Assembly (NCBI GenBank): GCA_024643785.1
Contig: JAHEMI010000013.1
Coordinates: 1-33,484, forward strand
Direction of reading: 5' to 3'
DNA length: 33,484 nt
From: Burkholderiaceae bacterium
GTDB taxonomy: Bacteria; Pseudomonadota; Gammaproteobacteria; Burkholderiales; Burkholderiaceae_E
In this document: piece by piece, positions 15,419 through 33,484 of the stretch
Numbering within the stretch: the stretch's first letter is position 1
Layout: each line of letters starts with the position of its first letter
Made by a program: the position numbers and the translations under genes
The notes under the pieces: generated by a model
Databases searched by the model: none
What the model was told of the DNA's origin: nothing
What the model saw: only the letters and a program-made list of their open reading frames with translations

Positions 15419-16126
15419 CTAGACGCTGAGGTAGCGCTCGATCAGTTGCGGGTCGGCGCCTAGTTGCGCGCTGTCGCCATGCCAGGCGATCAGGCCCTTG
15501 TCGAGGATGTAATGGTGATCGGCGAGCGGCAGCAGCGGTCGCAGGTTCTTGTCGATGACGATCATCGCCAGGCCCTCGGCGCGCAGCAGCGCGAGGCAGC
15601 GCCAGATCTCGCTGCGCACCAGCGGTGCCAGGCCTTCCGTGGCCTCGTCGAGGATCAGCAGCCGGGGATTGGTCATCAGCGCGCGGCCGATGGCGAGCAT
15701 CTGCTGCTCGCCGCCCGAGAGCCGGCCGCCGAGTTGGCGTTCGCGCTCGGCCAGTCGCGGGAACAGCTCGAAGACCCGCGCCAGCGTCCAGGGGCTCGCG
15801 CCGGCGTTGCGCCGCGATGCCGTCGCGACCAGGTTCTCGCGCACGGTCAGCGTCGGGAACACCTGCCGCCCCTCCGGAACCAGGCCGACTCCGGCGCGCC
15901 CGATCCGGTAGGACGGCTGCCCGGCCAGCGCCATGCCGCCGAGTTCGATGGTTCCGGACGTGGGCTTGAGCAGCCCGCTCAGGCACTTGACCGTTGTCGA
16001 CTTGCCCATCCCGTTGCGCCCGAGCAGCGTCACCACCTGGCCCGCCGCGACGCTGAAATCGATGCCGAACAACACCTGGCTGTGCTGGTAGCCAGCTTGC
16101 AGCGCACTGACCCGCAGCATGGTCAC
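15419..16126 (-). CDS. ABC transporter ATP-binding protein, LivF type
   Basis: A 235-residue ABC ATPase of the branched-chain amino acid (HAAT) family, LivF class. Walker A is GRNGMGKST, the Q-loop region is LVPEGRQVFPTLT, the signature is LSGGEQQ, and Walker B is LLILDEATEGLAP. With the neighbouring LivG-type ATPase it would drive uptake by the LivH/LivM-type permeases. Its start overlaps the end of the upstream ATPase gene by four bases. The context, next to boxR and benzoyl-CoA genes, suggests benzoate or a related aromatic acid as substrate rather than leucine; this is inference. Confidence 0.92.
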   Translation of the reverse strand: MTMLRVSALQAGYQHSQVLFGIDFSVAAGQVVTLLGRNGMGKSTTVKCLSGLLKPTSGTIELGGMALAGQPSYRIGRAGVGLVPEGRQVFPTLTVRENLVATASRRNAGASPWTLARVFELFPRLAERERQLGGRLSGGEQQMLAIGRALMTNPRLLILDEATEGLAPLVRSEIWRCLALLRAEGLAMIVIDKNLRPLLPLADHHYILDKGLIAWHGDSAQLGADPQLIERYLSV

Positions 16127-16929
16127 GACACCAGCTCCTCGTCGCCCAGGTAGGCGCTGCGCACTTCCTGGTTGCTGCGGATCTCGTCCGGCAGCCCGCT
16201 GGCGATTACCTGTCCGTAGACCAGCACGCTGATCCGGTCGGCGAGCGCGAAGACCGCGTTCATGTCGTGTTCGACCAGCAGCACCGGGTAGCGGTCGCGC
16301 AATTTCTGGAGCAACTCGACCATCGCCTCGGACTCGGCGCCGCTCATGCCGGCGAGCGGTTCGTCGAGCAACAGCATCTTCGGCTCCAGTGCCAGCGCCA
16401 TCGCGAGTTCCAGCTGACGATGTTCGCCGTGGGACATCGCAGCCGCGATAACCTCGCCCTGGGCGCCGATCCCGACGCTGGCGAGCGCCGCGTGGGCCTG
16501 CTCGATCAGCCGCCGCTCGCTGTGCAGCGGTCGCCAGCAGCCGAACGAACTGCCGCTGCGGGCCAGCACCGCCATCGCGACGTTCTCGAGCGCGGTGAAG
16601 TGGGGGCAGAACTGGGTGATCTGGTAGGAGCGGCCCAGGCCGGCGCGGGCACGCTGGGCGACCGAGAGGCGGGTGACGTCGCGTCCGCCGATCAGCACCT
16701 GGCCGGCATCCGGCCGCAACTCACCGGTGATCTGACCGATCAGCGTGGTCTTGCCGGCGCCATTGGGCCCGATCAGCGCGTGGATTTCGCCCGGCAACAG
16801 TGTGAGGCTGACCCCGTCGGTGGCCAGCAGCCCGCCAAAACGCTTGACGAGTTTCCTGGTCTCGAGCACGGGCGCGCCGGGCGCGCCAACACCGTGCTCC
16901 GTTCCGGCTGGTCGGCGCGAGTCAGTCAT
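16123..16929 (-). CDS. ABC transporter ATP-binding protein, LivG type
   Basis: About 268 residues, the LivG-class partner ATPase. Walker A is GPNGAGKTT, the Q-loop lies in the SYQITQFCPHFTALENV region, the signature variant is MSHGEHRQLELAMAL, and Walker B is MLLLDEPLAGM. ATG 16929 (MTDSRRPAG) is preferred over GTG 16944: GAGG lies about nine bases upstream, and the start then overlaps the LivM-type stop by eight bases, typical of coupled Liv operons. Confidence 0.92.
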   Translation of the reverse strand: MTDSRRPAGTEHGVGAPGAPVLETRKLVKRFGGLLATDGVSLTLLPGEIHALIGPNGAGKTTLIGQITGELRPDAGQVLIGGRDVTRLSVAQRARAGLGRSYQITQFCPHFTALENVAMAVLARSGSSFGCWRPLHSERRLIEQAHAALASVGIGAQGEVIAAAMSHGEHRQLELAMALALEPKMLLLDEPLAGMSGAESEAMVELLQKLRDRYPVLLVEHDMNAVFALADRISVLVYGQVIASGLPDEIRSNQEVRSAYLGDEELVS

Positions 16930-17905
16930 TGTTGCGGGCCTCACGCTCGCGCCTCGTGGCCCAGGCGTGGAATGAGCCGTAGAGCCCGCGCTTGGCGAAC
17001 ATCACCACCGCGACAATTGCCAGGCCCAGCGGCGCCATCCAGTGCTGGGTCAGCGACGACAGCATCTCCTCGACCAGCAGCAGTGCCAGGGCGCCCACCA
17101 GCGGCCCGATCACCGTTCCCATGCCGCCGAGAACCACCATCACGATCAGTTCGCCGGAGACCGTCCAGGCGCTGTAAGCGGGCGAGGTGTACTCGTTGTG
17201 ATTGGCCAGCAGCACGCCGGCAACGGCCGTGCAGCAACCCGCCAGCACGTAGATCGCGAGCTTGTAGCGCAGCGTCGGGAAACCGAGAGCCTTGAGGCGG
17301 CGTTCGTTGGCGTGGATGCCGCGCAGCGTGAAGCCCAGGCGCGCGTGGACCATGCGCCAGGAGAAGTAGAGCAGCGCGAGCAGCAGCACCAGGCACAGGT
17401 AGTAGAGCACCGTGTTCGAAGCCAGGTCGAAGGGCGCCAGCTGCGAGCGGGCGTCGAGCCTGATGCCGTCGTCGCCGCCATAGTTCTTCAGCGACACGCC
17501 GAGGTAGTAGAACATCTGCGTGAACGCCAGGGTGATCATGATGAACGCCATGCCGCTGGTGCGCAGGACCACCAGCCCGGTTGCGAAGGCCACCAGTGCG
17601 CCAGCGGCGAGCGCCACCAGCAGTTGCAGCCACCCGTTGCTGATCCCGTGGAAGCTCAGGATGCCCACGGCGTAGGCGCCGATCCCGAGGTAGAGGGCGT
17701 GGCCGAAGCTCACCAGTCCGGTGAAGCCGATCAGCAGGTTCAGGCTGCAGGCGGCGATCGCGTAGATCAGGATGCGGCCGAACTGCGTGACGTAGAACGG
17801 TTGGGCGACCAGGTGGGAGTAGACCGGCACCAGTGCAAGCAGCACCAGCAGCGCGGCGACCAGCCAGGGGCGCGGCGAGTTGAGCGAGATCGGTTCCGGG
17901 AACAT
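16922..17905 (-). CDS. ABC transporter permease, LivM type
   Basis: A 327-residue inner-membrane permease of the LivM class, with about eight to ten hydrophobic helices. Family motifs include SLNLLIGFTGLVSFGHALYL, FIMITLAFTQMFYYL with the following YGGDDGI segment, the EAA-like loop GIHANERRLKALGF and VVLGGMGTVIGP. It would form a heterodimeric channel with the LivH-type permease encoded just upstream, 15 bases away. No truncation is visible. Confidence 0.92.
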   Translation of the reverse strand: MFPEPISLNSPRPWLVAALLVLLALVPVYSHLVAQPFYVTQFGRILIYAIAACSLNLLIGFTGLVSFGHALYLGIGAYAVGILSFHGISNGWLQLLVALAAGALVAFATGLVVLRTSGMAFIMITLAFTQMFYYLGVSLKNYGGDDGIRLDARSQLAPFDLASNTVLYYLCLVLLLALLYFSWRMVHARLGFTLRGIHANERRLKALGFPTLRYKLAIYVLAGCCTAVAGVLLANHNEYTSPAYSAWTVSGELIVMVVLGGMGTVIGPLVGALALLLVEEMLSSLTQHWMAPLGLAIVAVVMFAKRGLYGSFHAWATRREREARNND

Positions 17906-17920
17906 CGGGCTCTGCCTCGC

Positions 17921-18841
17921 CTAGCCGTGACGGACCGGGAACAGCCCTTCGGGCTTGAACGCCAGCACCGCGGCCATCAGCAGGTAGATCAGCATCGAGG
18001 CCAGCGCCGGCCCGGCCGCCTGCGCAAAGCTGGGGCTCATCAAGGCGCTCATCCAGAGCGGCAGGAAGACCCGGCCCATGGTGTCGACCACCCCGATGAT
18101 CAGGGCCGCCAGGAAGGCGCCGCGGATCGAACCGATGCCGCCGACCACGATCACCACCAGGGTCTGGATCAGGATCGCCTCGCCCATCGCCGCCTGGACC
18201 GAGAAGATCGGTCCTGCCATCAGCCCCGCCAGTCCGGCCAGTCCGGCCCCGAGGCCGAAGATCAGCGTGTTGAGCAGGCGGATGTTGATGCCCAGCGCGC
18301 CGACCATGTCGGCGTTGGTGGCGCCCGCCCGGATCAGCATTCCGACCCGGGTATAGCTGATCAGCCAGTAGAGGAACAGGGCCACCATCAGCCCGACGGC
18401 AATGATCGCCACCCGATAGAGCGGGTAGAACAGTCCGCCAAAGGCGACGATCCCGGTGAGCCACTGCGGCGTTTGCGCATAAAGCGGCGACACGCCCCAG
18501 ATGATGCGCACCAGTTCATTGAAGAACAGCACCAGCCCGAAGGTCGCCAGCACCTGGTCGAGGTGGTCGCGCGCGTACAGGCCCGAGAGCGCGATCCTCT
18601 CGACCAGCATTCCCACCAGCATGGCGCCCGGTACCGCGACCAGCGCTGCGACCAGGAATGAACCGCTGGCGTTGCCGGCTGCCGCTGCGAAGTACGCCCC
18701 GACCATGTAGAGCGAACCATGGGCGAGATTGACGAAATTCATGATCCCGAACACCAGGGTCAGCCCGGCGGCGAGCAGGAACAGCAGCACCCCGAGTTGC
18801 AGTCCGTTGAGCAGCTGGGTAAGGAACAGTCCGAGCGTCAT
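17921..18841 (-). CDS. ABC transporter permease, LivH type
   Basis: A 306-residue LivH-class permease. The N-terminal helix and signature GLTLVFGIMNFVNLAHGSLY and the loop GALGINIRLLNTLIFGLGAGLAGLAG with IVVGGIGSIRGAF are typical. The protein is hydrophobic throughout. It is the first permease gene after the binding-protein gene, separated by 68 bases that contain overlapping hairpins. It is part of the presumed aromatic-acid importer. Confidence 0.92.
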   Translation of the reverse strand: MTLGLFLTQLLNGLQLGVLLFLLAAGLTLVFGIMNFVNLAHGSLYMVGAYFAAAAGNASGSFLVAALVAVPGAMLVGMLVERIALSGLYARDHLDQVLATFGLVLFFNELVRIIWGVSPLYAQTPQWLTGIVAFGGLFYPLYRVAIIAVGLMVALFLYWLISYTRVGMLIRAGATNADMVGALGINIRLLNTLIFGLGAGLAGLAGLMAGPIFSVQAAMGEAILIQTLVVIVVGGIGSIRGAFLAALIIGVVDTMGRVFLPLWMSALMSPSFAQAAGPALASMLIYLLMAAVLAFKPEGLFPVRHG

Positions 18842-18863
18842 GCGTGGTTCCGGATCGAGCAGG

Positions 18864-18897
18864 CACGACGGGCGCGGGCGGCGCCCGTCCCGTCGTG
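18864..18897 (-). other. overlapping hairpins between binding-protein and permease genes
   Basis: CACGACGGG (18864-18872) pairs perfectly with CCCGTCGTG (18889-18897). Alternatively ACGGGCGC (18868-18875) pairs with GCGCCCGT (18881-18888). The two share bases. In binding-protein operons such hairpins often protect the upstream mRNA or partly stop transcription, so that more binding protein than permease is made; here that is inference. Confidence 0.5.
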
Positions 18898-18909
18898 GTC
18901 AGCGTCAGA

Positions 18910-20085
18910 TCACTTCATCGGGCACTGGCTGTAGAAGGCGTCCTTGTAATCCTTGAGCGGAGTCGCCACGGTCTTCAGGGTCATCCTGCCCTGTGCGTCC
19001 TTGACCGCCTCGAAGATGTGGAAGTCCTGGATCACGAAGTGGTTGGTGTTGTACTTGAAGTTGCCGCGCAACGACTTGAAGTCCGCCGCCTTGAGCGCGG
19101 CCATGAATGCCGCCTGGTCATCGATCTTGCCGCCGACCTTGCGGATCGCCGAGTCAAGCAGCAGCGCCGCGTCGTAGGACTGGGCGGCGTACTGGGACGG
19201 GATACGCTTGTACTTGGCCTCGAAGTCCTTGACGAACTTCTGGTTGGTGGCGTTGGCGAAATCCGGGCCCCAGAAGCTGCCCGCGATGACGCCAATCGCA
19301 GCGTCGCCCATTGCCGGCAGGCCGATGCCATCAGCGGTCGAGGCGGTCAGCAGGGCGATCTTGCCCTTGAGTCCCGACTGGTTCCACTGCTTGACGAAGT
19401 TGATCCCCATGCCGCCGGGCAGGAACGCGAACACCGCCTGCGGTTGCGCCGCAGCGATCTGGGCGATCTCGGCCGAGTAATCCTGGGTGCCGAGCGCCGG
19501 CCACAGTTCGCCGGTGGTGGGCGTGGTGTAGTTGCGTCTGAAGCCCGCGACGAAGTCCTTGCCCGCCTGGTAGTTGGGCGCGATGGTCATGACTTTCTGG
19601 TAACCATTGTCGGCGGCGTAGCGGCCGACGACTTCGGGCTGTTGCCCGCCTTCCCATGAGGTCGAGAAGAAGTACGGCGAGCATTTCGCGCCGGCGATCG
19701 GCGACGGCCCGGCATTGGAGCCGATCAGGAACACCTTCTGGTCGGTGACCTTCTTGTGGATAGCCATCATGATGTTGGAGAAGGTGATGCCGGTGATGAT
19801 CTGCACCTTCTCCTTCTCGATCATCTTGTCGACGACCTGGACCGCCACCTCGGGCTTGAGCTGGCTGTCCTCGCGCAGCACTGACACCGGGACGCCGCCG
19901 AGCTTGCCGCCGTTTTGTTCGACCACCAGCATGAACGCATCGTACTGGTCCTGGCCCAACGGTCCCTGGGGACCTGAGAGAACGCCCATGAAGCCGATCT
20001 TGATCTCGGCCTGGGCCAAACCCGGCGCCGCGAGCGCGCCGATCACTGCTGCCGCAGTGAGGGCAAGTCTCAACCTCGTTTTCAT
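18910..20085 (-). CDS. periplasmic substrate-binding protein of HAAT-type ABC transporter
   Basis: A 391-residue Leu/Ile/Val-type type I periplasmic binding protein. A signal peptide is clear: MKTRLRLALT, a hydrophobic stretch, then AQA with cleavage predicted before EIKIGF. The mature N-terminus IKIGFMGVLSGPQGPLG and the following EDSQLKPEVAVQVVDKMI match the family. AGGAGA precedes the ATG. It lies beside boxR and the box catabolic genes, as in known benzoate clusters of Azoarcus-type bacteria, so benzoate or a related aromatic acid is the likely ligand. A 140-base gap with a weak operator-like element at 20098-20108 separates it from the hydrolase gene. Confidence 0.9.
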   Translation of the reverse strand: MKTRLRLALTAAAVIGALAAPGLAQAEIKIGFMGVLSGPQGPLGQDQYDAFMLVVEQNGGKLGGVPVSVLREDSQLKPEVAVQVVDKMIEKEKVQIITGITFSNIMMAIHKKVTDQKVFLIGSNAGPSPIAGAKCSPYFFSTSWEGGQQPEVVGRYAADNGYQKVMTIAPNYQAGKDFVAGFRRNYTTPTTGELWPALGTQDYSAEIAQIAAAQPQAVFAFLPGGMGINFVKQWNQSGLKGKIALLTASTADGIGLPAMGDAAIGVIAGSFWGPDFANATNQKFVKDFEAKYKRIPSQYAAQSYDAALLLDSAIRKVGGKIDDQAAFMAALKAADFKSLRGNFKYNTNHFVIQDFHIFEAVKDAQGRMTLKTVATPLKDYKDAFYSQCPMK

Positions 20086-20225: not shown

Positions 20226-21071
20226 TCACTGCTGCAGCGCACCCAGGAAAGCGATGATTTCGCTGGCGGTGCGCCCCGGCTGCTCGAGATGCGGGCTGTG
20301 CCGCGCCCCGGGGATCGCGACCGCGCGGGCATCTGGCGCCAGTTCCGCGACCCGCTCGATCTGGCGCAGGGTGCCGTACTGATCCTCGGTCCCCTGGAGT
20401 GCCAGCACCGGGCAGCGGACCTGCGCCACTTCGGACTCGATGTTCCAGGCCAGGAACTCGGGGTCCAGCCAGATGTCGCTCCAGGTCCTGAAGGTCAGCT
20501 GCGGATCGCGGTGGTAGCGCCCCAGCGCCCGCGCCAGGCGGCCGTCGGGGAACGCGGCGGCGGCCGCCGCAATCGAATCGATGCAGACCGGCTCGACGAA
20601 CAGGTGCGGCGCGAGCGCGACCACCGCCGCTATCGTCGGCGCTGCACCGCCGTCGCGCTGCGCCGCCGTGGCGGCGTGGAGCAGCGCGATCGAGCCGCCG
20701 TCGCTGTGACCGACCAGGATCGCGCGCCTGATGCCGAGGTGCGCCAGCAGCGCCGGCAGGGCCTGCCGCGCCTCATCGTGCATGAAGCTGGTGGTGAAGG
20801 GCGTGGCGAAAGTCTCGGAACCACCGTAGCCGCGGCGCGACGACACCACTGCCGGCAGGTCGAGCGAGCGCGCCATGTGCTGCGGGAAATCGCGCCACAT
20901 CGCCAGGCAGCCCAGGCCCTCGTGAAGAAACACCAGCACGCTACGGTCGCCGGCGACAGCGCCGATCGTGGCGTATTCGATGGTCTCGCCGCCAACTCGT
21001 TCGCAGCGTGTCGTGGCGGCCAGTTCGGGACAGGGGCTGGGCTCGATCATCGGTGGACTTTCCATCGTCAT
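20226..21071 (-). CDS. alpha/beta hydrolase associated with the benzoate cluster
   Basis: A 281-residue alpha/beta-fold hydrolase. The nucleophile elbow is VGHSDGGS with Ser123. The likely acid is Asp230 (LQGTEDQYG) and the likely base His258 (PGARHSPHLEQP). An HEG oxyanion motif is near residue 50. There is no signal peptide, so it should be cytoplasmic. Hydrolases of this kind accompany box genes in other bacteria and have been called lactone hydrolases, but the substrate is not established; a lactone or CoA-thioester side product is plausible. It is divergent from boxR with only 49 bases between start codons, and a candidate BoxR operator touches its ATG. A second ATG at 21065 is also possible. 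Confidence 0.85.
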   Translation of the reverse strand: MTMESPPMIEPSPCPELAATTRCERVGGETIEYATIGAVAGDRSVLVFLHEGLGCLAMWRDFPQHMARSLDLPAVVSSRRGYGGSETFATPFTTSFMHDEARQALPALLAHLGIRRAILVGHSDGGSIALLHAATAAQRDGGAAPTIAAVVALAPHLFVEPVCIDSIAAAAAAFPDGRLARALGRYHRDPQLTFRTWSDIWLDPEFLAWNIESEVAQVRCPVLALQGTEDQYGTLRQIERVAELAPDARAVAIPGARHSPHLEQPGRTASEIIAFLGALQQ

Positions 21072-21081
21072 GCGCTATAGT
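21054..21081 (+). promoter_or_regulatory. candidate boxR promoter
   Basis: TGGACT (21054-21059), a 16-base spacer and TATAGT (21076-21081) resemble a sigma-70 promoter reading toward boxR, about 40 bases before its ATG. The -10 box lies inside the candidate BoxR operator, as expected for autorepression. Confidence 0.35.
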
Positions 21082-21083
21082 GC
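21069..21083. promoter_or_regulatory. candidate BoxR operator, copy 1
   Basis: The minus strand reads GCACTATAGCGCATG, which matches copy 2 at 22505-22519 in 14 of 15 bases. Its core GCACTATAGCGC is nearly palindromic (five of six pairs). It lies between the divergent hydrolase and boxR genes and overlaps the hydrolase start codon. Assignment to BoxR is inference from position. Confidence 0.6.
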
Positions 21084-21120
21084 CATCCAGTAACAACTTT
21101 TGAAACTATCTTGCAATCCA

Positions 21121-22035
21121 ATGCCGGCCCGTGGCAACCAACAGGACGACGGCCAGTACCTTGAGCGACTGGGTGCGCGCGTGCGCCAGCGCCGTGAGGA
21201 ACTAGGCCTTACGCGACGGCGCCTGGCCGAGGAGTCGGGGCTTTCGGAGCGCTACCTCGCGCAGCTCGAACTGGGCGCCGGCAACGCTTCGGTGCTGTTG
21301 ATCAGGCGCCTCGCGCTCGCCCTCGAAGTCGCTCCCGAAGTGATCCTGCTCGATGCTCCCGCGGGACCGGCTACCGCCCAGATCTTCGCCGCGCTTCGGT
21401 TCCTCGACACCGAGACCCTGGCCCAGGCGGCAGGGCTGCTCGAGCAGCGGTTTGGCAAGGTCAGCCACGCGCGGCGCCAGCGCATCGCACTGATCGGCCT
21501 GCGGGCCGCCGGCAAGTCAACCCTGGGCACTGCGCTGGCGCGCCGGTTGCGGATTCCGTTTCATGAACTCGACCTCGAGGTCGAGCGCGATGCCGGGATG
21601 AGTCTCGCCAATCTCTTTTCGCTCTACGGCCAGGACGCCTACCGGGTTCACGAACGCAAGGCGCTGACGGCGCTGGTCGGGCGTGTCGGCCCACAGGTGA
21701 TCGCCACCGGCGGCTCGCTGCCGACCGAGCCGGAATCGTTCGAACTCCTGCGCAGCCACTGTTTCACGGTGTGGCTGCGCGCCGAACCCCAGGACCACAT
21801 GAAGCGGGTGGTGGCTGCCGGCGACCTGCGCCCGATTCGCGGCCGCAGCCGGGCGATGGCCGAACTCGAGGCGATCCTGGCTGAGCGCGAATCGCTCTAC
21901 GCCCAGGCCGACCTGCGCGTCGATACCAGCGCCAATTCAGTGGAGCGTTGCGTCGAGATGGTGTTGGCGGCGCTCGGCGATGCCCCGCCGGCGCGAAACC
22001 AGGCGCGGCGGGCACGCCCCTCGTCGGGGCGCTGA
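21121..22035 (+). CDS. boxR: BoxR/BzdR-type benzoyl-CoA-responsive transcriptional regulator
   Basis: A 304-residue regulator with the two-part design of BoxR and BzdR. Residues about 13-70 are an XRE/Cro-type helix-turn-helix (RRRLAEESGLSERYLAQLELG), followed by a short linker. Residues about 121-290 are a shikimate-kinase-like domain with an intact P-loop, GLRAAGKST (126-134). In the studied homologues this domain binds benzoyl-CoA and releases repression of box or bzd promoters. ATG 21121 is chosen; the frame extends to TTG 21100 without conserved sequence. Its position between the transporter/hydrolase genes and the box genes fits local control. Confidence 0.93.
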   Translation: MPARGNQQDDGQYLERLGARVRQRREELGLTRRRLAEESGLSERYLAQLELGAGNASVLLIRRLALALEVAPEVILLDAPAGPATAQIFAALRFLDTETLAQAAGLLEQRFGKVSHARRQRIALIGLRAAGKSTLGTALARRLRIPFHELDLEVERDAGMSLANLFSLYGQDAYRVHERKALTALVGRVGPQVIATGGSLPTEPESFELLRSHCFTVWLRAEPQDHMKRVVAAGDLRPIRGRSRAMAELEAILAERESLYAQADLRVDTSANSVERCVEMVLAALGDAPPARNQARRARPSSGR

Positions 22036-22043
22036 CCGGATCG

Positions 22044-22499
22044 TCAGGCGGCGCGCGCCAGTTCGAGCCAGCCGGGCATCCATTCGAGCGCGAGGTCCTC
22101 GGGCATCTGGCCGCCGGCGGAATCGAGCCGGGCACGCTCGCCGATGCGCCGGGCGCCGAGTTCGGCGAGCAATTCGTCGAATTTCTGGCCGCCAAAGTTG
22201 AAGGTGTCGGTGTAGGTGTTGTCGCCCAGCCCGATGACGCCGTAGCGCACCGCCGACAGGTCAGGGCGCTGGGCACGCAGCGCGTCGTAGAGCGGTTTGC
22301 CGTTGTCCGGGACATCGCCCTGGCCGTAGGTCGAGGTGCAGATCAGGTAGATCTCGTCGCCGTCGAATACCTCAGGGCCGAGGTTGTCCATCGGTGTGAC
22401 GACTATTTCGGTGTCATCGTCACCAAAGGTGAGCTCGAGTTCCTGCGCCACCATCTCGGCGGTTCCGGTCATTGTTGCAACGAGTATGTTTATTCGCAT
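22044..22499 (-). CDS. MioC-type flavodoxin
   Basis: A 151-residue short-chain flavodoxin that should bind FMN and carry electrons in the cytoplasm. The phosphate loop is ATMTGTAEMVA, the 60s loop is TSTYGQGDVPDN, and the 90s loop is GLGDNTYTDTFNFGG. ATG 22499 (MRINILVATM) is used; a GTG at 22508 is an alternative. It converges on boxR with an 8-base gap and is divergent from boxC, with the second candidate BoxR operator just upstream of its ATG. It could pass electrons to the diiron oxygenase component BoxB, since no boxA reductase is seen here; this is inference, and a housekeeping MioC/BisC-like role is possible. Confidence 0.85.
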   Translation of the reverse strand: MRINILVATMTGTAEMVAQELELTFGDDDTEIVVTPMDNLGPEVFDGDEIYLICTSTYGQGDVPDNGKPLYDALRAQRPDLSAVRYGVIGLGDNTYTDTFNFGGQKFDELLAELGARRIGERARLDSAGGQMPEDLALEWMPGWLELARAA

Positions 22500-22504
22500 G
22501 GCAA

Positions 22505-22519
22505 GCACTATAACGCATG
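22505..22519. promoter_or_regulatory. candidate BoxR operator, copy 2
   Basis: GCACTATAACGCATG on the plus strand differs by one base from the minus-strand copy at 21069-21083. It lies six bases upstream of the flavodoxin ATG and 126 bases upstream of the boxC ATG. Downstream, AACTTT (22535-22540) and TTGCAAT (22542-22548) also recur in the boxR promoter region at 21095-21100 and 21111-21117. Confidence 0.6.
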
Positions 22520-22644
22520 TATAGACAAATAAGGAACTTTATTGCAATTTCGTTCCGGGCACAGTAATCTGTGTCGCTAGCGGGGGCTAAGCGTTGCGCT
22601 GTTGCCTTGCGCCGCCGTGTCAATCAAAGCTGCAGGAGAACGCG

Positions 22645-24315
22645 ATGCCAGCCAACGGATCAAATGGCGCCAGCGCGCCGATTCGGTTCGAGACCGACCC
22701 CTCACGATACCAGCACTGGAAGCTCCAGGTCGACGGGGCAGTGGCGCGGCTCGAACTCGACGTTGCCGAGGACGGCGGCATTGCGCCGGGCTACCAGCTC
22801 AAGCTCAATTCCTATGACCTCGGGGTGGACATCGAGCTCAACGACGCGCTCAACCGGATCCGCTACGAGCACCCTGGCGTACGCACGGTCGTGGTCGCCA
22901 GTGCGCGGCCGCGGATGTTCTGTTCCGGAGCGAATATCTACATGCTCGGACTATCGAGCCACGGCGACAAGGTCAATTTCTGCAAGTTCACCAACGAGAC
23001 CCGCAACGGCATGGAGGATTCCAGCCGCTTCGAGGGCATCCGCTTCCTGGCGGCGATCAACGGGGCGTGCGCCGGCGGCGGCTATGAGCTGGCGCTGGCC
23101 TGCGACGAGATCCTGATGGTCGACGACCGTTCGAGCACGGTCAGCCTGCCGGAAGTGCCGCTGCTGGGTGTCCTGCCCGGCACCGGCGGATTGACCCGGC
23201 TGGTTGACAAGCGCCAGGTGCGGCGCGACCTCGCCGACGTCTTCTGCACCACCGCGGAGGGCGTGCGGGCCGAGCGCGCGCTGCAGTGGCGCCTGGTCGA
23301 TCACATCGCCAAGCCGGCAGCGTTCGACGAGTCGGTGGCGACGCACGCCGCCCGGCTGGCCGCCTCTGGTCCGCGTCCGGCCGATGCCGCGGCAGTGGCG
23401 TTGACGCCGCTGGCCTGCACCCAGGATGGCCCCGACCGGCGCAGCTATTCGCTGGTGCGCTGCGTGATCGACCGCGAGCAGCGCAGCGCCGCGATCACGC
23501 TCGCCGGTCCTGCCGAGGCGCCGCCCGCCGACGGCGAAGCCGCCCGGAGCGCCGGCTCCGACTATTGGGCGTTGCGGCTCGCGCGTGAGTTCGAGGACCT
23601 GGTGCTGCACCTGCGCAGCAACGAGACCGAGATCGGGCTCTGGCTGCTGCGCACCGAGGGCGACCTGGCGCGCACCCTTGCCCACGACGCTTTCCTCGAG
23701 GCCAACCAGGATCACTGGTTCGTGCGCCAGGTGAGCGGCACCTGGCGCCGGCTGCTCTCGCGTCTCGATGTCGGCTCGCGCTCGATGTTCGCGCTCGTCG
23801 AGCCGGGCTCGTGCTTTGGCGCAGTGCTGCTCGAGGTGGCGCTCGCCGCCGACCGGATCTACATGCTCGATACCGAGGAGAGCGATCCGGGCGCCGCGCT
23901 CGCGCTCGCCGAGTCGAATTTCGGCCGTTATCCGATGGCCAGCGGCGCGACGCGGCTAGAAGCGCATTACAGCGGCCTGGTGCCCGCGGAACTGCGCGAA
24001 CAGCTCGGCGCCGCGCTTTCGGCCGCGCAATGCGATGCGCTCGGCCTGGTCACCGCCGCGCCCGACGACCTCGACTATGCCGAGGAAGTGCGCATCGCCA
24101 TCGAGGAGCGCGCAGCGCAATCGCCCGATGCGCTGACCGCGATGGAGGCCAACCTGCGCTTCCCCGGGGCGGAGACCATGATCACGCGCATTTTCGGGCG
24201 CCTCACAGCCTGGCAGAACTGGGTCTTCCAGCGGCCCAACGCGACCGGCGAAGGCGGGGCACTGAAAGTCTATGGCACCGGGTCGCGACCAGATTTCGAT
24301 CGCCGGCGCGTCTGA
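22645..24315 (+). CDS. boxC: 2,3-epoxybenzoyl-CoA dihydrolase (benzoyl-CoA-dihydrodiol lyase)
   Basis: A 556-residue crotonase-superfamily enzyme, BoxC. It opens 2,3-epoxybenzoyl-CoA hydrolytically, releasing formate and 3,4-dehydroadipyl-CoA semialdehyde. Oxyanion-hole motifs are RMFCSGANIYML (about 90-101) and INGACAGGGYELA (138-150), followed by LPEVPLLGVLPGTGG. A second, diverged crotonase-like half follows, with LRSNETEIGLWLLRTEGD. The length is typical for BoxC. CAGGAGA just upstream supports ATG 22645; the upstream TTG at 22594 is not conserved. It is the first gene of a boxC-boxB-bclA run. Confidence 0.95.
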   Translation: MPANGSNGASAPIRFETDPSRYQHWKLQVDGAVARLELDVAEDGGIAPGYQLKLNSYDLGVDIELNDALNRIRYEHPGVRTVVVASARPRMFCSGANIYMLGLSSHGDKVNFCKFTNETRNGMEDSSRFEGIRFLAAINGACAGGGYELALACDEILMVDDRSSTVSLPEVPLLGVLPGTGGLTRLVDKRQVRRDLADVFCTTAEGVRAERALQWRLVDHIAKPAAFDESVATHAARLAASGPRPADAAAVALTPLACTQDGPDRRSYSLVRCVIDREQRSAAITLAGPAEAPPADGEAARSAGSDYWALRLAREFEDLVLHLRSNETEIGLWLLRTEGDLARTLAHDAFLEANQDHWFVRQVSGTWRRLLSRLDVGSRSMFALVEPGSCFGAVLLEVALAADRIYMLDTEESDPGAALALAESNFGRYPMASGATRLEAHYSGLVPAELREQLGAALSAAQCDALGLVTAAPDDLDYAEEVRIAIEERAAQSPDALTAMEANLRFPGAETMITRIFGRLTAWQNWVFQRPNATGEGGALKVYGTGSRPDFDRRRV

Positions 24316-24353: not shown

Positions 24354-25796
24354 ATGTCAACCATCCAGTACGGTGACCGGATTCCGAACAACGTCCGTCT
24401 CGACGAAGACCGGGTACTCCAGAGGGCGCTCGAACACTGGCAGCCCAGGTTCCTTGACTGGTGGAAGGAGTCCGGCCCGGCCGACTTCCAGTCCTCCGAC
24501 GTCTACCTGCGCACCGCCGTCGGCGTCGACGCCAAGGGCTGGGCCAGCTATGGCCAGGTGCGCATGCCCGACTATCGCTGGGGCATCTTCCTTGCCGATG
24601 CCGAGCCCGGGCGCAAGATCGGTTTCGGCGACGCGATGGGCCAGGATGCCTGGCAGTCGGTGCCGGGGGAATATCGCTCGATGCTGCGCCGCTTCATCGT
24701 CACCCAGGGTGATACCGAGCCGGCCTCGGTCGAGCAGCAGCGCATGCTTGGACACATTGCGCCCTCGCTCTACGACCTGCGCAATCTCTTCCAGATCAAC
24801 GTCGAGGAGGGGCGTCACCTCTGGGCGATGGTCTACCTGCTGCACGCCTACTTCGGCCGCGACGGCCGCGAGGAGGCCGAGGCCCTGCTCGAGCGTCACT
24901 CGGGCGATCCCGACAACGCCCGCATCCTCGAGACCTTCAACGAGCCCATCGACGACTGGCTCTCGCTGTACATGTTCACCTACTTCACCGATCGCGACGG
25001 CAAGTACCAGCTGAAGTCCTTCGCCGAATCGGCCTTCGATCCGCTCTCGCGCACCTGCCGCTTCATGCTGACCGAGGAAGCGCACCACATGTTCGTCGGC
25101 GACACCGGTATTGGCCGCGTGATCCGGCGCACTATCGACCTGATGAAGGAACTCAAGACCGACGACCCGGCTGCCATCAGGCGCGCCGGCGGCATCGACA
25201 TGGAGTTGCTGCAGCGCTACCTGAACTACTGGTTCACTTCGTCGCTCGATCTCTTTGGCGGCGAGGATTCGTCCAATGCCGCGAGCGCCTTCGCCACCGG
25301 GATCAAGGGCCGCCCGGACGAGGCCGGCTACGCCGATCATCTCGAGCGTGACACCAGTTTCGAACTCGCCCGGCCGGTCGCCGATTGGGACGGCAGCGGC
25401 GACGGCATCGCCGTCGACGAAATCCCGATGCGCAACGCCACCAACGAAGTGGTCCGCCAGTCCTACATTCGCGACTGCGAAATCGGCCTCAAGCGCTGGA
25501 ACCGGACCCTCGAGCGCGCCGGCACCGGGTTCCAGCTGGCTCTGCCGTCATCGCACTTCCGGCGCAAGATCGGTGCCTGGGCCAGTGTGCCGACCGATCC
25601 TTCGGGGCGGCGGATCACTGCCGGGCAGTTCAGCGCCGGGATCGGTGACTGGGTGCCGAGCGCCGACGACAAGGCCTATGTGAAGTCGCTGATGGTCAAG
25701 GTGCACGAGCCCGGCAAGATGGCTGGCTGGATCGCGCCGCCGGAACGGGGCATCAACAACCTGCCGCTCGATCACGAATACGTGCGGGTTCCCTGA
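24354..25796 (+). CDS. boxB: benzoyl-CoA 2,3-epoxidase, diiron oxygenase component
   Basis: A 480-residue BoxB, the diiron oxygenase that converts benzoyl-CoA to 2,3-epoxybenzoyl-CoA with O2. The expected iron ligands are present: Glu122, Glu152 and His155 (EEGRH), Asp213, Glu242 and His245 (EEAHH). This matches the ligands reported for Azoarcus evansii BoxB with a constant offset of two residues, as I recall the literature. AAGGGGA precedes the ATG by about six bases. BoxB needs electrons, normally from the reductase BoxA, which is not encoded in this window. Confidence 0.96.
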   Translation: MSTIQYGDRIPNNVRLDEDRVLQRALEHWQPRFLDWWKESGPADFQSSDVYLRTAVGVDAKGWASYGQVRMPDYRWGIFLADAEPGRKIGFGDAMGQDAWQSVPGEYRSMLRRFIVTQGDTEPASVEQQRMLGHIAPSLYDLRNLFQINVEEGRHLWAMVYLLHAYFGRDGREEAEALLERHSGDPDNARILETFNEPIDDWLSLYMFTYFTDRDGKYQLKSFAESAFDPLSRTCRFMLTEEAHHMFVGDTGIGRVIRRTIDLMKELKTDDPAAIRRAGGIDMELLQRYLNYWFTSSLDLFGGEDSSNAASAFATGIKGRPDEAGYADHLERDTSFELARPVADWDGSGDGIAVDEIPMRNATNEVVRQSYIRDCEIGLKRWNRTLERAGTGFQLALPSSHFRRKIGAWASVPTDPSGRRITAGQFSAGIGDWVPSADDKAYVKSLMVKVHEPGKMAGWIAPPERGINNLPLDHEYVRVP

Positions 25797-25848: not shown

Positions 25849-27441
25849 ATGAACCAGCTATCGAGCGCGGACCACCGCGCCAGTCCGCCGCGCATCGAGA
25901 TCCCCGACAGCTACAACGCCGCGGTCGACCTGATCGGGCGCAATCTTGCCGCCGGCCGGGCCGACAAGGTCGCCTTCGTCGACGACGCCGGCAGTTGCAC
26001 CTACGGCGAACTGGCGCGCCGCGTCGACCGCTTCGCCAGTGGCCTTGCGACGCTGGGCCTGCGTCGCGAAGAGCGCGTGATGATCTGCATGCACGACTCG
26101 ATCGACTGGCCGGTCGCGTTCCTGGGAGCGATCAAGGCCGGGATCGTACCGGTGGCGGCAAACACGCTGCTGATGGCCAAGGACTACGAGTTCATGGTGC
26201 GCGACTCGCGCGCCCGGGCGGTGATCGTCTCCAATCCGCTGCTGGCCCATTTCGCCGGGCTGGTCGACACCGTGCCGACGCTCGAGCATCTCGTGGTTGC
26301 CGGAGTCGCTGCTGGCGAAAGCGGCGGCCGGATGCGTTTCGAGGACCTGCTCGCCGCCGGGCGCGAGCCGTTCGAGGGGCCGGACACCTCGCCCGACGAG
26401 CCGTGCTTCTGGCTCTACTCTTCCGGATCGACCGGGACTCCCAAGGGCACTGTCCACATCCATTCGAGCATGATCCAGACCGCCGAGCTTTATGCCCGGC
26501 CGGTGCTCGGGATCAAGGAATCGGACCGGGTGTTCTCGGCCGCCAAGCTGTTCTTCGCCTACGGACTGGGCAACGGGCTGAGTTTCCCGATGGCGGCCGG
26601 CGCCACCGCGGTGCTGATGGCCGAACGCCCGACGCCGGCGGCCGTGTTTGCCCGGCTCACCGGCACGCAGCGCCCGACGATCTTCTACGGCGTGCCGACG
26701 CTGTTTGCGGCGATGCTGGCAGACCCGGCGTTTCCCGAGCGCAACGCGCTGCCACTGCGGGTGGCGACTTCAGCCGGCGAGGCATTGCCCGCCCAGATCG
26801 GCGAGCGCTGGCGCGAGCGCACCGGCGTCGATATCCTCGACGGCATCGGCTCCACCGAGATGCTGCACATCTTCCTGTCCAACCGGCCGGGCGAAGTGCG
26901 CTACGGAACGACCGGCATGGCGGTCCCGGGTTACGAGCTCAAGCTGCTTGGCGACAACGGCGATCCGGTGGCCGACGGCGAGGTCGGCGACCTGTTCGTG
27001 AAGGGCCCGAGCGCGGCCTCGGGCTACTGGAACCAGCGCGAGAAGAGCCGCGCTGTCTTCCGCGGCGAGTGGACCCACAGCGGCGACAAGTACGTCCGCA
27101 GTGCCGACGGCTACTACACCTATTCCGGCCGCTCGGACGACATGCTCAAGGTGAGCGGGCAGTACGTTTCGCCCTTCGAGGTCGAGTCGGCGCTGGCGAC
27201 CCACCCCAAGGTGCTCGAGGCCGCCGTGGTCGGTTCTCCCGACGCCGAAAAGCTGATCAAGCCGCGGGCCTTCGTGGTCCTCAAGAACCCTGGCGATGCC
27301 AGCGAGCAACTGGCCGATGAGTTGCGCGCCCACGTGCGCGGCCAGCTCGCCGCGCACAAGTATCCGCGCTGGATCGAATTCACCGCGGAACTGCCGAAGA
27401 CGGCGACCGGGAAGATCCAGCGCTTCAGGCTGCGCGGCTGA
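25849..27441 (+). CDS. bclA: benzoate-CoA ligase
   Basis: A 530-residue adenylate-forming enzyme that activates benzoate to benzoyl-CoA with ATP and CoA. The AMP-binding motif LYSSGSTGTPKGT spans residues 189-201. FAYGLGNGLSFPM and LDGIGSTEMLHIF are typical of benzoate-CoA ligases, and SGRSDDMLKVSGQYVSPFEVE marks the hinge. The catalytic lysine is Lys522 in TATGKIQRF. A strong AGGAGGAG site precedes the ATG. It is the last box gene here, and its 3' end overlaps the convergent ATP-grasp gene by 17 bases. 2-Aminobenzoate- or hydroxybenzoate-CoA ligase activity is less likely in this context. Confidence 0.94.
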   Translation: MNQLSSADHRASPPRIEIPDSYNAAVDLIGRNLAAGRADKVAFVDDAGSCTYGELARRVDRFASGLATLGLRREERVMICMHDSIDWPVAFLGAIKAGIVPVAANTLLMAKDYEFMVRDSRARAVIVSNPLLAHFAGLVDTVPTLEHLVVAGVAAGESGGRMRFEDLLAAGREPFEGPDTSPDEPCFWLYSSGSTGTPKGTVHIHSSMIQTAELYARPVLGIKESDRVFSAAKLFFAYGLGNGLSFPMAAGATAVLMAERPTPAAVFARLTGTQRPTIFYGVPTLFAAMLADPAFPERNALPLRVATSAGEALPAQIGERWRERTGVDILDGIGSTEMLHIFLSNRPGEVRYGTTGMAVPGYELKLLGDNGDPVADGEVGDLFVKGPSAASGYWNQREKSRAVFRGEWTHSGDKYVRSADGYYTYSGRSDDMLKVSGQYVSPFEVESALATHPKVLEAAVVGSPDAEKLIKPRAFVVLKNPGDASEQLADELRAHVRGQLAAHKYPRWIEFTAELPKTATGKIQRFRLRG

Positions 27442-30157: not shown

Positions 30158-33100
30158 TCACGGCGCGAGCACCAATCCGTAGGCTGACGCCAACCACGAG
30201 CGATAGGCTGCGAGATCTACGCTGCCCTCGACGTGGGCGTCGGGATCGGGTTCGCTGATGACGAATGCCGAACTCGTTGCGGTGTCGAGTCCGGCGATCG
30301 GCGCGTCGCGCTGGAAGGGCGCTGGCCAGGGCGCGTCGGCGGCATTGGGGTAGCGCACCGCGCGGTCCTGGTCGCTTCCCCAGGCAATGTAGGGCAGGGC
30401 GTAGACCTCGTTGTGCAGTACCGGGTTGGTGACCTTGCGCTGCTCCGGCGGCAGCGTCGCCATCGTGACTCCGGCGCGCCGTGCCTGCTCGAGCATCCAG
30501 TTGAGCGCGATGTCGGAGAGATCGCCGCCATCGCACCCGCTCGCGCAGGCATAGCCGCCGCCGACGTCGGAGTGGGCGCCGACAAAACCCAGTTCGACCC
30601 TGGTCGGCGTCGCTCCGATCGCCGCAAAGTCGGGCTCGATCGACTCGAGCGGGAACAGCGTGCGGTGTTCGTTGAGCGCAACCGCCTGTGACGCGTAGGC
30701 CACGGCCGCCGGTATTCCCAGTTCGAAGCTCTCCGCAGCGATGCTGAGCACGGTGTCGAACAGTCCCATGAAGCGCAGTTCGACGTCGACGCAACGGCCC
30801 TTGAGCAGCCGCAGGTAGTAGCCCTCGCGCTCCCGGGCCGCGACCTGGTTGGCGAAGCTGCGCGCAGCCGCGGCGCCGCGCGAGAAACCCACCATGTCGA
30901 TGGTGGCGCTGATGGGGGCGGTTGATGCCCCGGTGAGCGAGCTGGCCCGGGCCACCGTCGCCAGCAGGTAGTCATCGAGCCGCTTGAGCTGGCGCGCGAC
31001 CACCAGCGAGAGTGTGTATGCGAGCGCCGAATCGCCGGGAGCCCACCAGCCTGAGCCCGGACCCGGTTCGTAGAATGGCCTGGTCGCGCCGCTGATGCCG
31101 CTGGCGTTGTCGCGGTAGTAGTTCGCCAGCCACGAGACATTGGTCCGCGAAGCAGGGGTATTGCCGGTACCGTCGAAGGCGAACAGGATCAGCCCCAGGG
31201 GATCGATCCCGGAGCGCGGATTCGATTCGGCGTAGGCGTAGGCGTTGGCACCGGCCAGCGGGCCGAGCGGATCGGGGCTGAGGTAACGCCCCGAGCGCGG
31301 GTTGTAGTAGCGATGCAGGTTGTAGTGCAAGCCGGTGGCCGCATCGCGGTACTGGCCGGCGAAGGCCAGCGGCTGGCGGTAACTGCGCGGCCCGCCGCGC
31401 TCCTGCCCGTCCGGCGCCCGCGCCCGGTCACCGAGCTCGGGTGCGCCGAACGCCGGTACAGTGCGGCGCCAGACCGCCCGGCCGGAATGGTCGGTGGCGA
31501 GTTCCGGCGCTCTCAGGTGATTGCTGTGCAGGAATGTGACGGTGGTGCGCGGCGCTGAGCGGCCGGTGCCTCGTTCCTGCGGCCAGCTCAGGTCGATGGT
31601 TGCGATCGGTACCCCGGCAAGATGGAAATAGTGACGCAGCACCCGGCCGTCGCCATCGAGCTCGGCCGATACCAGGCCATCGTGATACAGGAAGTGGGTG
31701 GGCGCTGCTGCTCCGTTCCAGGCGCTGATGCGCTCGCCACGGGCGTTGTATTCGTAGCGTGCGATCGGTTCGGAGTCATCTCCGGCTAGCGCCGAACGTA
31801 CTTCGATCAAGCTGCCCTCGGCGCTCCAGCGAAAGCGGCGCAGGCCATCGCCAATCAGCCGTCCGGCAGCGTCGAATCGTTCCGGACCAGAGGGCATGGT
31901 CAATGGGGTGAGCGCCGGTGACTGGCTCGCGATCCGGTTGCCCTCGGCGTCGTACGCGAAGCGGGTGATGCCGTTGGCGCTGCGCGCTGAGATCAGGCGC
32001 GCGAGCGGGTCGTAGCGGTGCTCGCTGAACGCCCCGTTGCGGCTTTCGGCGGCAACGTTGCCGACCGGGTCGTATCGCAGTCCCAGCGACAGCAATTCGC
32101 CGCCGCCCGGTTCCCGGTAGGACATGCCGAGCAGCCGTCCGCTGGCTGAACGGGTTGCCCGATAGCGCACCCCGTTGCCGTAGGTCCAGGACCTCGCGCC
32201 CAGATGGTCGGACTCGATGTCGCTGACGATGGCGACCGCCTCCGCTCCCGGGAAGGCAAGCCATTCGAGCGCGACGATCCGGCCCGTTGGGTTGGCGCGT
32301 GCCCGCAGGACACTGCCGTCGGCCAGGGTGCGGGCAGCGAGCTGGCCGTCGCCGCGATACTCGAACGATTCGCTGACCGTGAACGGGCGCTCGCCGTGGA
32401 ATCGGCGTTCGTTCATGACCAGCCGCGATTGCCCATCGAAGCGGCGTACTTCACCTTGCGCGTCGCTGTCGATCGCGACCAGCCGGGCGCCGCGGTAGCG
32501 CAGCGCTACCCGCCGCCGCGCCTGTCCGGGAGTGGCGCTCTGGCGCTCGACCAGGCGGCTGTCTTCATCGTAGCGATAGCTGCGCACCGAGCCGTCGGCG
32601 TCGCGGCGCTCGACCAGCCGATCGGCCGGGTCGTAGCGCAGGCTGCTGGTGCCGGCATCGGGATGCGTGCTCGCGACGATCCGCCCGAAGTCGTCACGCA
32701 CCGTGGCGTAGGTCCGGCCGCCGGCAGTGGTCAGGGTTGCGATTGCGCCCAGTTCGTCGTGGGTGAGCGATTGTGTGGCGGCGAAAGCGGTGTTGGCGGC
32801 CGCGGTGCTGGTGCGCGGCTGCAGTTGATCGTCGTAGTCGAGTGCCGCGAGGATTCCGGCGGGATCACGGATCGTGGCGAGCAGGCCGCGACGATCGTAG
32901 CCCAGTGCGGTCACCGCGCCATCGGCGGCCCGGTGAGTCGTTACCCGGCCCAACGCATCGCGCGCCAGTCGTTCGGTAGCGACGCCATCGCGGGTGGCGC
33001 TGGTCGTCGCGATGACCCTGCCGCTGGCGTCGTGTTCGAAGCCGAGCAGCGCCAGGTCGCTGTCTGCGACCAGACGCAGGCGTCCCGCCGGGTCGTGGAC

Positions 33101-33484
33101 CAGCAGGCGCTCGGGCTTGCCATTGCGCTGCAGTTCACCGAGGTTGCCGAAGGAGTCGTAGTCGAGCGTGGCGAGTTCCGGGCCGCGCCGCAGCGAGCGC
33201 AGTCTGCCTGCAGCGGTCCACGACAAATCGAGCGCCAGATCGTCGTCGGGCGCCAGCCGCGCGATCCTTCCGGCCGGGTCGTAGCTGATTTCGGTCACCC
33301 GCCCGCCGGCCGAGGTGATGCGCGTCAGGCGACCCGATCGGTCGTAGGCATAGCGCACCGTATCGCGCGGGCCGGGCAGCGCTCCGTCGACCGCGACGAG
33401 GCGCTGGTCGTGGTCGTAGGACAGTGCGATCCTGCGGCTCAGCGCAGTTGCCGGGCGCCCCGGCGCAAAGCCGCTCTCGCGCAG
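30158..33484 (-). CDS. RHS-repeat protein with C-terminal DUF2235/Tle1-like phospholipase domain (partial)
   Basis: At least 1108 residues; the frame stays open to the right edge, so the start is missing. The visible N-terminal two-thirds consist of YD/RHS repeats (RYAYDRSGRLTRI, SYDPAGRIARL and many variants) that form a shell. The conserved RHS core (YYNPRSGRYLSPDPLGP) ends with DPLGL at 31190-31204, the usual boundary before a toxin domain. The last ~343 residues resemble DUF2235/Tle1 lipases: FDGTGN, the nucleophile motif GFSRGAA (around 30870-30890) and HSDVGGGY (30551-30574). It is probably a polymorphic toxin, perhaps delivered by a type VI system, that attacks membrane lipids. No immunity gene follows it. 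Confidence 0.88.
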   Translation of the reverse strand: MRESGFAPGRPATALSRRIALSYDHDQRLVAVDGALPGPRDTVRYAYDRSGRLTRITSAGGRVTEISYDPAGRIARLAPDDDLALDLSWTAAGRLRSLRRGPELATLDYDSFGNLGELQRNGKPERLLVHDPAGRLRLVADSDLALLGFEHDASGRVIATTSATRDGVATERLARDALGRVTTHRAADGAVTALGYDRRGLLATIRDPAGILAALDYDDQLQPRTSTAAANTAFAATQSLTHDELGAIATLTTAGGRTYATVRDDFGRIVASTHPDAGTSSLRYDPADRLVERRDADGSVRSYRYDEDSRLVERQSATPGQARRRVALRYRGARLVAIDSDAQGEVRRFDGQSRLVMNERRFHGERPFTVSESFEYRGDGQLAARTLADGSVLRARANPTGRIVALEWLAFPGAEAVAIVSDIESDHLGARSWTYGNGVRYRATRSASGRLLGMSYREPGGGELLSLGLRYDPVGNVAAESRNGAFSEHRYDPLARLISARSANGITRFAYDAEGNRIASQSPALTPLTMPSGPERFDAAGRLIGDGLRRFRWSAEGSLIEVRSALAGDDSEPIARYEYNARGERISAWNGAAAPTHFLYHDGLVSAELDGDGRVLRHYFHLAGVPIATIDLSWPQERGTGRSAPRTTVTFLHSNHLRAPELATDHSGRAVWRRTVPAFGAPELGDRARAPDGQERGGPRSYRQPLAFAGQYRDAATGLHYNLHRYYNPRSGRYLSPDPLGPLAGANAYAYAESNPRSGIDPLGLILFAFDGTGNTPASRTNVSWLANYYRDNASGISGATRPFYEPGPGSGWWAPGDSALAYTLSLVVARQLKRLDDYLLATVARASSLTGASTAPISATIDMVGFSRGAAAARSFANQVAAREREGYYLRLLKGRCVDVELRFMGLFDTVLSIAAESFELGIPAAVAYASQAVALNEHRTLFPLESIEPDFAAIGATPTRVELGFVGAHSDVGGGYACASGCDGGDLSDIALNWMLEQARRAGVTMATLPPEQRKVTNPVLHNEVYALPYIAWGSDQDRAVRYPNAADAPWPAPFQRDAPIAGLDTATSSAFVISEPDPDAHVEGSVDLAAYRSWLASAYGLVLAP

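Follow-up and report, generated by a model that had tools for sequence, protein, structure and literature searches.

The closest described systems are those controlled by BoxR and BzdR, regulators that respond to benzoyl-CoA (PMC4424350). In Azoarcus sp. CIB, benzoyl-CoA is the effector of BzdR (PMC3602430). Work done by Suvorova and Gelfand (2019, PMC6449761) describes, in its section on these regulators, a main BoxR/BzdR motif that is the palindrome ATGCACTATAGTGCAT (TGCA-N6-TGCA). Among the papers searched, this is the sole one to contain that string. According to the same section, BoxR and BzdR bind TGCA repeats spaced 1, 6 or 15 nt apart, and the sites are almost always multiple, with a spacing of mainly three to five helical turns.

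The DNA analysed here, called the window, is a stretch of 33,484 nucleotides from a Burkholderiaceae bacterium. It belongs to a draft assembly (G000) of 2,663,814 bases in 179 contigs that is 96.1% complete, and this assembly was searched in full. The window carries a box module (Table 1). Its boxR product has an N-terminal XRE-type helix-turn-helix fused to a shikimate-kinase-like domain, the architecture that defines the BoxR family and that is described for the BzdR repressor of the Azoarcus PN promoter (PMC3602430). The boxR start at ATG 21121 was picked by the analyst; the mechanical frame opens at TTG 21100. The alpha/beta hydrolase is a candidate box-pathway lactonase. Downstream of it, the transporter genes comprise a binding protein, two ATPases and two permease-like frames (17921-18841 and 16922-17905), the last two assigned solely from tblastn matches to the transporter loci of the g8 relatives. 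A lactonase-type hydrolase, a ligase and an ABC transporter are likewise included in the regulon as given in the BoxR section of PMC6449761. That section makes no mention of a flavodoxin gene, whereas one is part of the module here. An RHS/YD-repeat protein frame is also present in the window (30158-33358, minus strand).

Table 1. Features of the box module and its predicted regulatory sites (positions in the window)
Feature	Position	Strand	Basis
Branched-chain-type ABC transporter genes, downstream of hydrolase	15419..20085	-	Peripla_BP_6, ABC_tran, BCA_ABC_TP_C
Alpha/beta hydrolase	20226..21071	-	Abhydrolase families; TIGR02427 63.2 bits, below cut-off 255.85
Sigma-70-like boxR promoter, TGGACT-N16-TATAGT	21054..21081	+	Consensus match only, 9/12; shuffles mean 0.0, sd 0.3
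Predicted primary BoxR-type operator, hydrolase/boxR region	21070..21085	.	ATGCGCTATAGTGCCA, 13/16 to ATGCACTATAGTGCAT
Second, weak BoxR-like site, hydrolase/boxR region	21101..21116	+	TGAAACTATCTTGCAA, single TGCA half-site, matrix score 0.3
boxR, 304 aa, XRE-type HTH and shikimate-kinase-like domain	21121..22035	+	NF006015 325.2 bits (cut-off 204); HTH_3 (PF01381), SKI (PF01202)
Flavodoxin	22044..22499	-	PF00258
Predicted primary BoxR-type operator, flavodoxin/boxC region	22503..22518	.	AAGCACTATAACGCAT, 13/16 to ATGCACTATAGTGCAT
Second BoxR-like site, flavodoxin/boxC region	22532..22547	+	AGGAACTTTATTGCAA, third-highest matrix score in window (12.9)
boxC, 2,3-epoxybenzoyl-CoA dihydrolase	22645..24315	+	TIGR03222 840.6 bits (cut-off 712.3)
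boxB, benzoyl-CoA 2,3-epoxidase	24354..25796	+	TIGR03225 718.5 bits (cut-off 499.1)
bclA, benzoate-CoA ligase	25849..27441	+	TIGR02262 792.1 bits (cut-off 375.25)

The initial annotation reported a repeated 15-base element in the two divergent regions of the module and proposed that it may define a different BoxR operator. The two 15-mers lie exactly where they had been placed: GCACTATAGCGCATG at 21069-21083 on the minus strand and GCACTATAACGCATG at 22505-22519 on the plus strand. Their shared form, GCACTATARCGCATG, has no exact match elsewhere in the 2.66-Mb assembly. The assignment to BoxR is borne out as a prediction. The idea of a different operator is not: the comparison had been made with a TGCA-N6-GGNTA motif, and each site agrees with the published palindrome in all but three of its 16 positions. 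On sequence grounds, the repeated element very probably represents the BoxR binding site known from earlier work, a further instance of the BoxR/BzdR operator and not a novel class. Searched through the whole assembly at up to 3 mismatches, ATGCACTATAGTGCAT is found only at 21070 and 22503, and the reversed-pattern control gives 0; with 2 or fewer mismatches allowed, the assembly yields no site. The two primary sites stand at boxR and at the box operon.

The same places are favoured by a weight matrix built from other genera. Its training set was 30 sites from 17 of 23 boxR loci (L010-L034 minus the g8 loci L013 and L017); these sites had been selected beforehand for lying within 3 mismatches of ATGCACTATAGTGCAT, and six of the loci yielded none. 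In the window the matrix ranks 22503 first (21.0), 21070 second (13.3) and 22532 third (12.9), with the fourth position at 7.1. All of the top three lie within the two divergent regions. Across 60 simulated windows the matrix maximum averaged 10.3 and reached 22.5, and single scores of 13 were not rare, so that single matrix scores are not decisive.

Each divergent region also holds a second, weaker copy, and this pairing was missed by the earlier description. The distance from primary to second site is 31 bp in the hydrolase/boxR region and 29 bp in the flavodoxin/boxC region, about three helical turns. With 29-32 bp in related loci, this agrees with the multiplicity and the three-to-five-turn spacing of BoxR/BzdR sites, the one at 21101 being weak. 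The in-register second element reads AACTATCTTGCAAT (21104-21117, plus strand) and AACTTTATTGCAAT (22535-22548, plus strand), with the shared form AACTWTMTTGCAAT. At up to 1 mismatch, AACTWTMTTGCAAT is confined to the box locus in G000, G001 and G003 and has no match in G002; its reversed control gives one match, in G001. AACTTT and TTGCAAT had been noted as recurring in both regions. They do recur, but out of register, with start-to-start distances of 16 bp and 7 bp, and AACTTT was accordingly rejected as an in-register shared element. Similarly, the mirror-image orientation attributed to the two 15-mers carries little information because the element is an imperfect palindrome. On their sequence and setting, both elements can be assigned with high confidence as the primary operators of BoxR in an ordinary box (aerobic CoA-dependent benzoate) regulon, each with its weaker partner at 29-31 bp.

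Both primary sites are kept in all four members of the genus. Extra places for ATGCACTATAGTGCAT at 3 mismatches were found in G001 (two) and G002 (one), and for the reversed control in G001 (two) and G003 (one). The comparison was extended to 15 hydrolase/boxR loci, made up of the four from this genus and 11 from g8 genomes with BoxR at 279 bits or more. A matrix site scoring at least 13.3 is present at the hydrolase start in all 15 regions. In 14 of these loci a TTGCA half-site lies 29-32 bp from the primary site (30 bp in L009); the exception is G002 (L008), in which TTGCA has become TTGCTA and the second-site score is -11.3. Scored over the full 16-mer, these second sites are weak; the 13 conserved ones with an in-register score range from 0.3 to 7.6. 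In each of the nine loci with a boxR-adjacent flavodoxin, the two top matrix positions of the flavodoxin/boxC or flavodoxin/bclA region lie 29 bp apart in this genus, with scores of 12.9-21.0, and 31 bp apart in g8, with 8.0-13.3. Burkholderiaceae MAGs L035-L037 likewise carry both sites. By consensus search, loci L009, L019 and L041 (partial, weak protein match) have no ATGCACTATAGTGCAT place within 4 mismatches, although L009 has a site by matrix, and L011, L012, L020, L022 and L024 have consensus places only at 4 mismatches. Wide genomic occurrence of the element and its absence from orthologous boxR loci had been named as grounds for doubt. Neither was found, as the assembly has box-locus sites only (up to 3 mismatches) and BoxR-type sites are present at the same places in relatives. 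The predicted BoxR operator is hereby extended to a genus represented here by draft genomes alone. Because the paired layout is kept together with its spacing, the predicted operator is open to gel shift with short defined DNA.

A distinct operator subtype, in which the recognition sequence of this lineage has shifted to the asymmetric GCACTATARCGCATG, would account for several features. The degenerate half (GCG for GCA) is common to both primary sites and departs from the motif of PMC6449761, a search with the published consensus at up to 2 mismatches gives no site in any of the four genus members, and the recognition-helix stretch reads SERYLAQLE here, whereas 18 of the 25 relatives (L010-L034) have SERHLANLE. 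SERYLAQLE is also found, however, in L010, L011 and L014, and the L010 site, ATGCACTATAGTGCTT, is near-consensus. The orthologous site in G095, ATGCGCTATAGTGCAC, is intermediate between the genus form and the consensus. Moreover, each site has a canonical TATA centre and one canonical half-site, the better of the two, and the matrix from other genera still detects them. A shifted subtype is improbable, and a separate operator class was rejected given the fit of the published consensus to both sites. The predicted sites share with the betaproteobacterial BoxR/BzdR motif, as described in PMC6449761, the palindromic TGCA-N6-TGCA type with a TATA centre, and with its regulon the occurrence of more than one site at boxR and boxC, spaced by about three turns. 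At the PN promoter of Azoarcus there are also several operator regions, but three of them, and the promoter is an anaerobic (bzd) one (PMC3602430).

The association of the motif with boxR was assessed in 74 family genomes. At up to 2 mismatches, ATGCACTATAGTGCAT occurs at 49 places, compared with 4 for the reversed pattern, and for 35 of these a boxR match is no more than 500 bp away. The site is present in 36 of 56 genomes with boxR and in 2 of 18 without it (Fisher p = 9e-5). The remaining 20 boxR-bearing genomes, among them all four of this genus, have no site within 2 mismatches.

The match between the two divergent regions was compared with chance. These were taken as 21069-21120 (52 bases, hydrolase start codon included) and 22500-22644 (145 bases). 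Their best 15-mer match is 14/15, which none of 3000 first-order Markov replicates reached; the replicate maximum was 13/15, attained in 30 of the 3000 region pairs. Pairs matching at 14/15 abound in the GC-rich window as a whole (209 direct runs and 505 inverted ones, the latter each counted about twice), and the weight of the 15-mer repeat thus rests on its place and conservation and not on the repeat alone. At up to 3 mismatches the window holds only the two 15-mer places; at the same looseness, 1.12 window matches are expected on average by chance. Two or more matches arose in 31 of 100 shuffled windows, which lends something to the view that the repeats are mere promoter -10 boxes beside a start codon, whose likeness is accidental or reflects a similar core sequence at both promoters. 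A TATA-centred palindrome does look like a -10 box on either strand, and TATAGT belongs to a good boxR promoter. This explanation leaves unaccounted for the GCA-type half-sites kept outside the TATA, the second TTGCA element at 29-32 bp and the association of the motif with boxR over the 74 genomes, and no simulated region pair attained the observed match; its likelihood is small, marginally below that of a shifted subtype. That the sites belong to some other benzoate-linked regulator is extremely unlikely, as the motif is the one published for BoxR/BzdR (PMC6449761, BoxR section) and accompanies boxR among the 74 genomes.

In the hydrolase/boxR region, the -10 box (TATAGT) of the predicted boxR promoter coincides with the middle of the primary operator. 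For the flavodoxin/boxC region the promoter scan gave nothing above its thresholds; a candidate picked out there by eye is TTGCAA-N17-TAATCT, located at the second site. Both elements had been described as intergenic. This stands for the second, where the flavodoxin ATG is set off from the primary operator by three bases, but only in part for the first, whose last three bases (21071-21069, minus strand) are the ATG of the longest hydrolase frame. Such an overlap of operator and hydrolase start codon differs from the sites described in the BoxR section of PMC6449761. Taking the hydrolase start of each locus as the ATG nearest to the operator (the choice of the script), this ATG shares bases with the 16-mer in 14 of the 15 loci; in the remaining one, L090, it directly adjoins it. 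Nine of the 15 loci have no alternative in-frame ATG, GTG or TTG in the N-terminal stretch of the hydrolase, scanned over 20 codons for the four genus loci and up to 30 for the others. The overlap of start codon and operator (window 21065-21085) suggests that the hydrolase transcript could be leaderless.

The centring of the operator on the -10 box, together with the published benzoyl-CoA response of these regulators, points to repression by paired dimers that benzoyl-CoA would relieve. In each pair, both sites would be filled by BoxR dimers lying on roughly one face of the helix, and the bound dimers would cover the boxR -10 region and the start of the divergent gene. Both divergent units, hydrolase(-transporter)/boxR and flavodoxin/boxC-boxB-bclA, would thereby be repressed. 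Binding of benzoyl-CoA to the shikimate-kinase-like domain would then release BoxR. Benzoyl-CoA is the effector of BzdR in Azoarcus sp. CIB (PMC3602430), and BoxR here presumably shares it.

The likely BoxR regulon is widened by these sites to a flavodoxin. BoxB is divergent in all four genus members, at 718-731 bits compared with 887-913 for the other full-length family matches. None of the four has a BoxA (TIGR03224) match at E 1e-60 or better, and a loose search of the G000 assembly gave six weak TIGR03224 matches, the best at 45.4 bits against a cut-off of 459.2. The published box gene set (boxA, boxB and boxC) is thus seen in this genus with boxB and boxC but no recognised boxA. BoxA is present in 42 of the 49 genomes with a BoxB match (48 above cut-off). 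The seven genomes with BoxB and no BoxA match are the four of this genus, G011, G078 and G033; in the latter three the lack may be an assembly gap, since BoxB is partial (G011, G078) or near a contig end (G033). One locus, L096, was considered as a divergent BoxA and set aside because, judged by eye, its frame resembles an NqrF-type reductase and has an NqrE-like gene as its neighbour. It is conceivable, though doubtful, that the flavodoxin, under BoxR, replaced BoxA as electron donor to the divergent BoxB. In five g8 genomes a boxR-adjacent flavodoxin and BoxA are both present, so the flavodoxin is not a simple replacement there. Within the paper collection searched, no paper joined BoxA, BoxB, benzoyl-CoA and flavodoxin.

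The 14 family-wide places that lie more than 500 bp from a boxR match fall into a few settings: six before a branched-chain-type transporter operon, two before boxC, three before a lactate-dehydrogenase-like flavoenzyme, two by a lytic-transglycosylase-like gene and one in G061. The six transporter cases come from g8 genomes (L072-L076, L080); the contig in question carries no boxR match, and the branched-chain-type ABC transporter that follows the site is probably the benzoate transporter. Two g3 genomes (L077:3034, L078:3007) carry a perfect ATGCACTATAGTGCAT near the lytic-transglycosylase-like gene (judged by sequence), away from benzoate genes, and an NCBIfam scan (1e-20) gave no name for the gene beside it in L077. 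At three g8 loci (L079:3035, L081:2995, L083:1027), an FMN-dependent lactate-dehydrogenase-like gene follows a BoxR-like palindrome at short distance; the gene was assigned by family scan in one of the three and by sequence in the other two. This gene is a possible new member of the BoxR regulon in g8.
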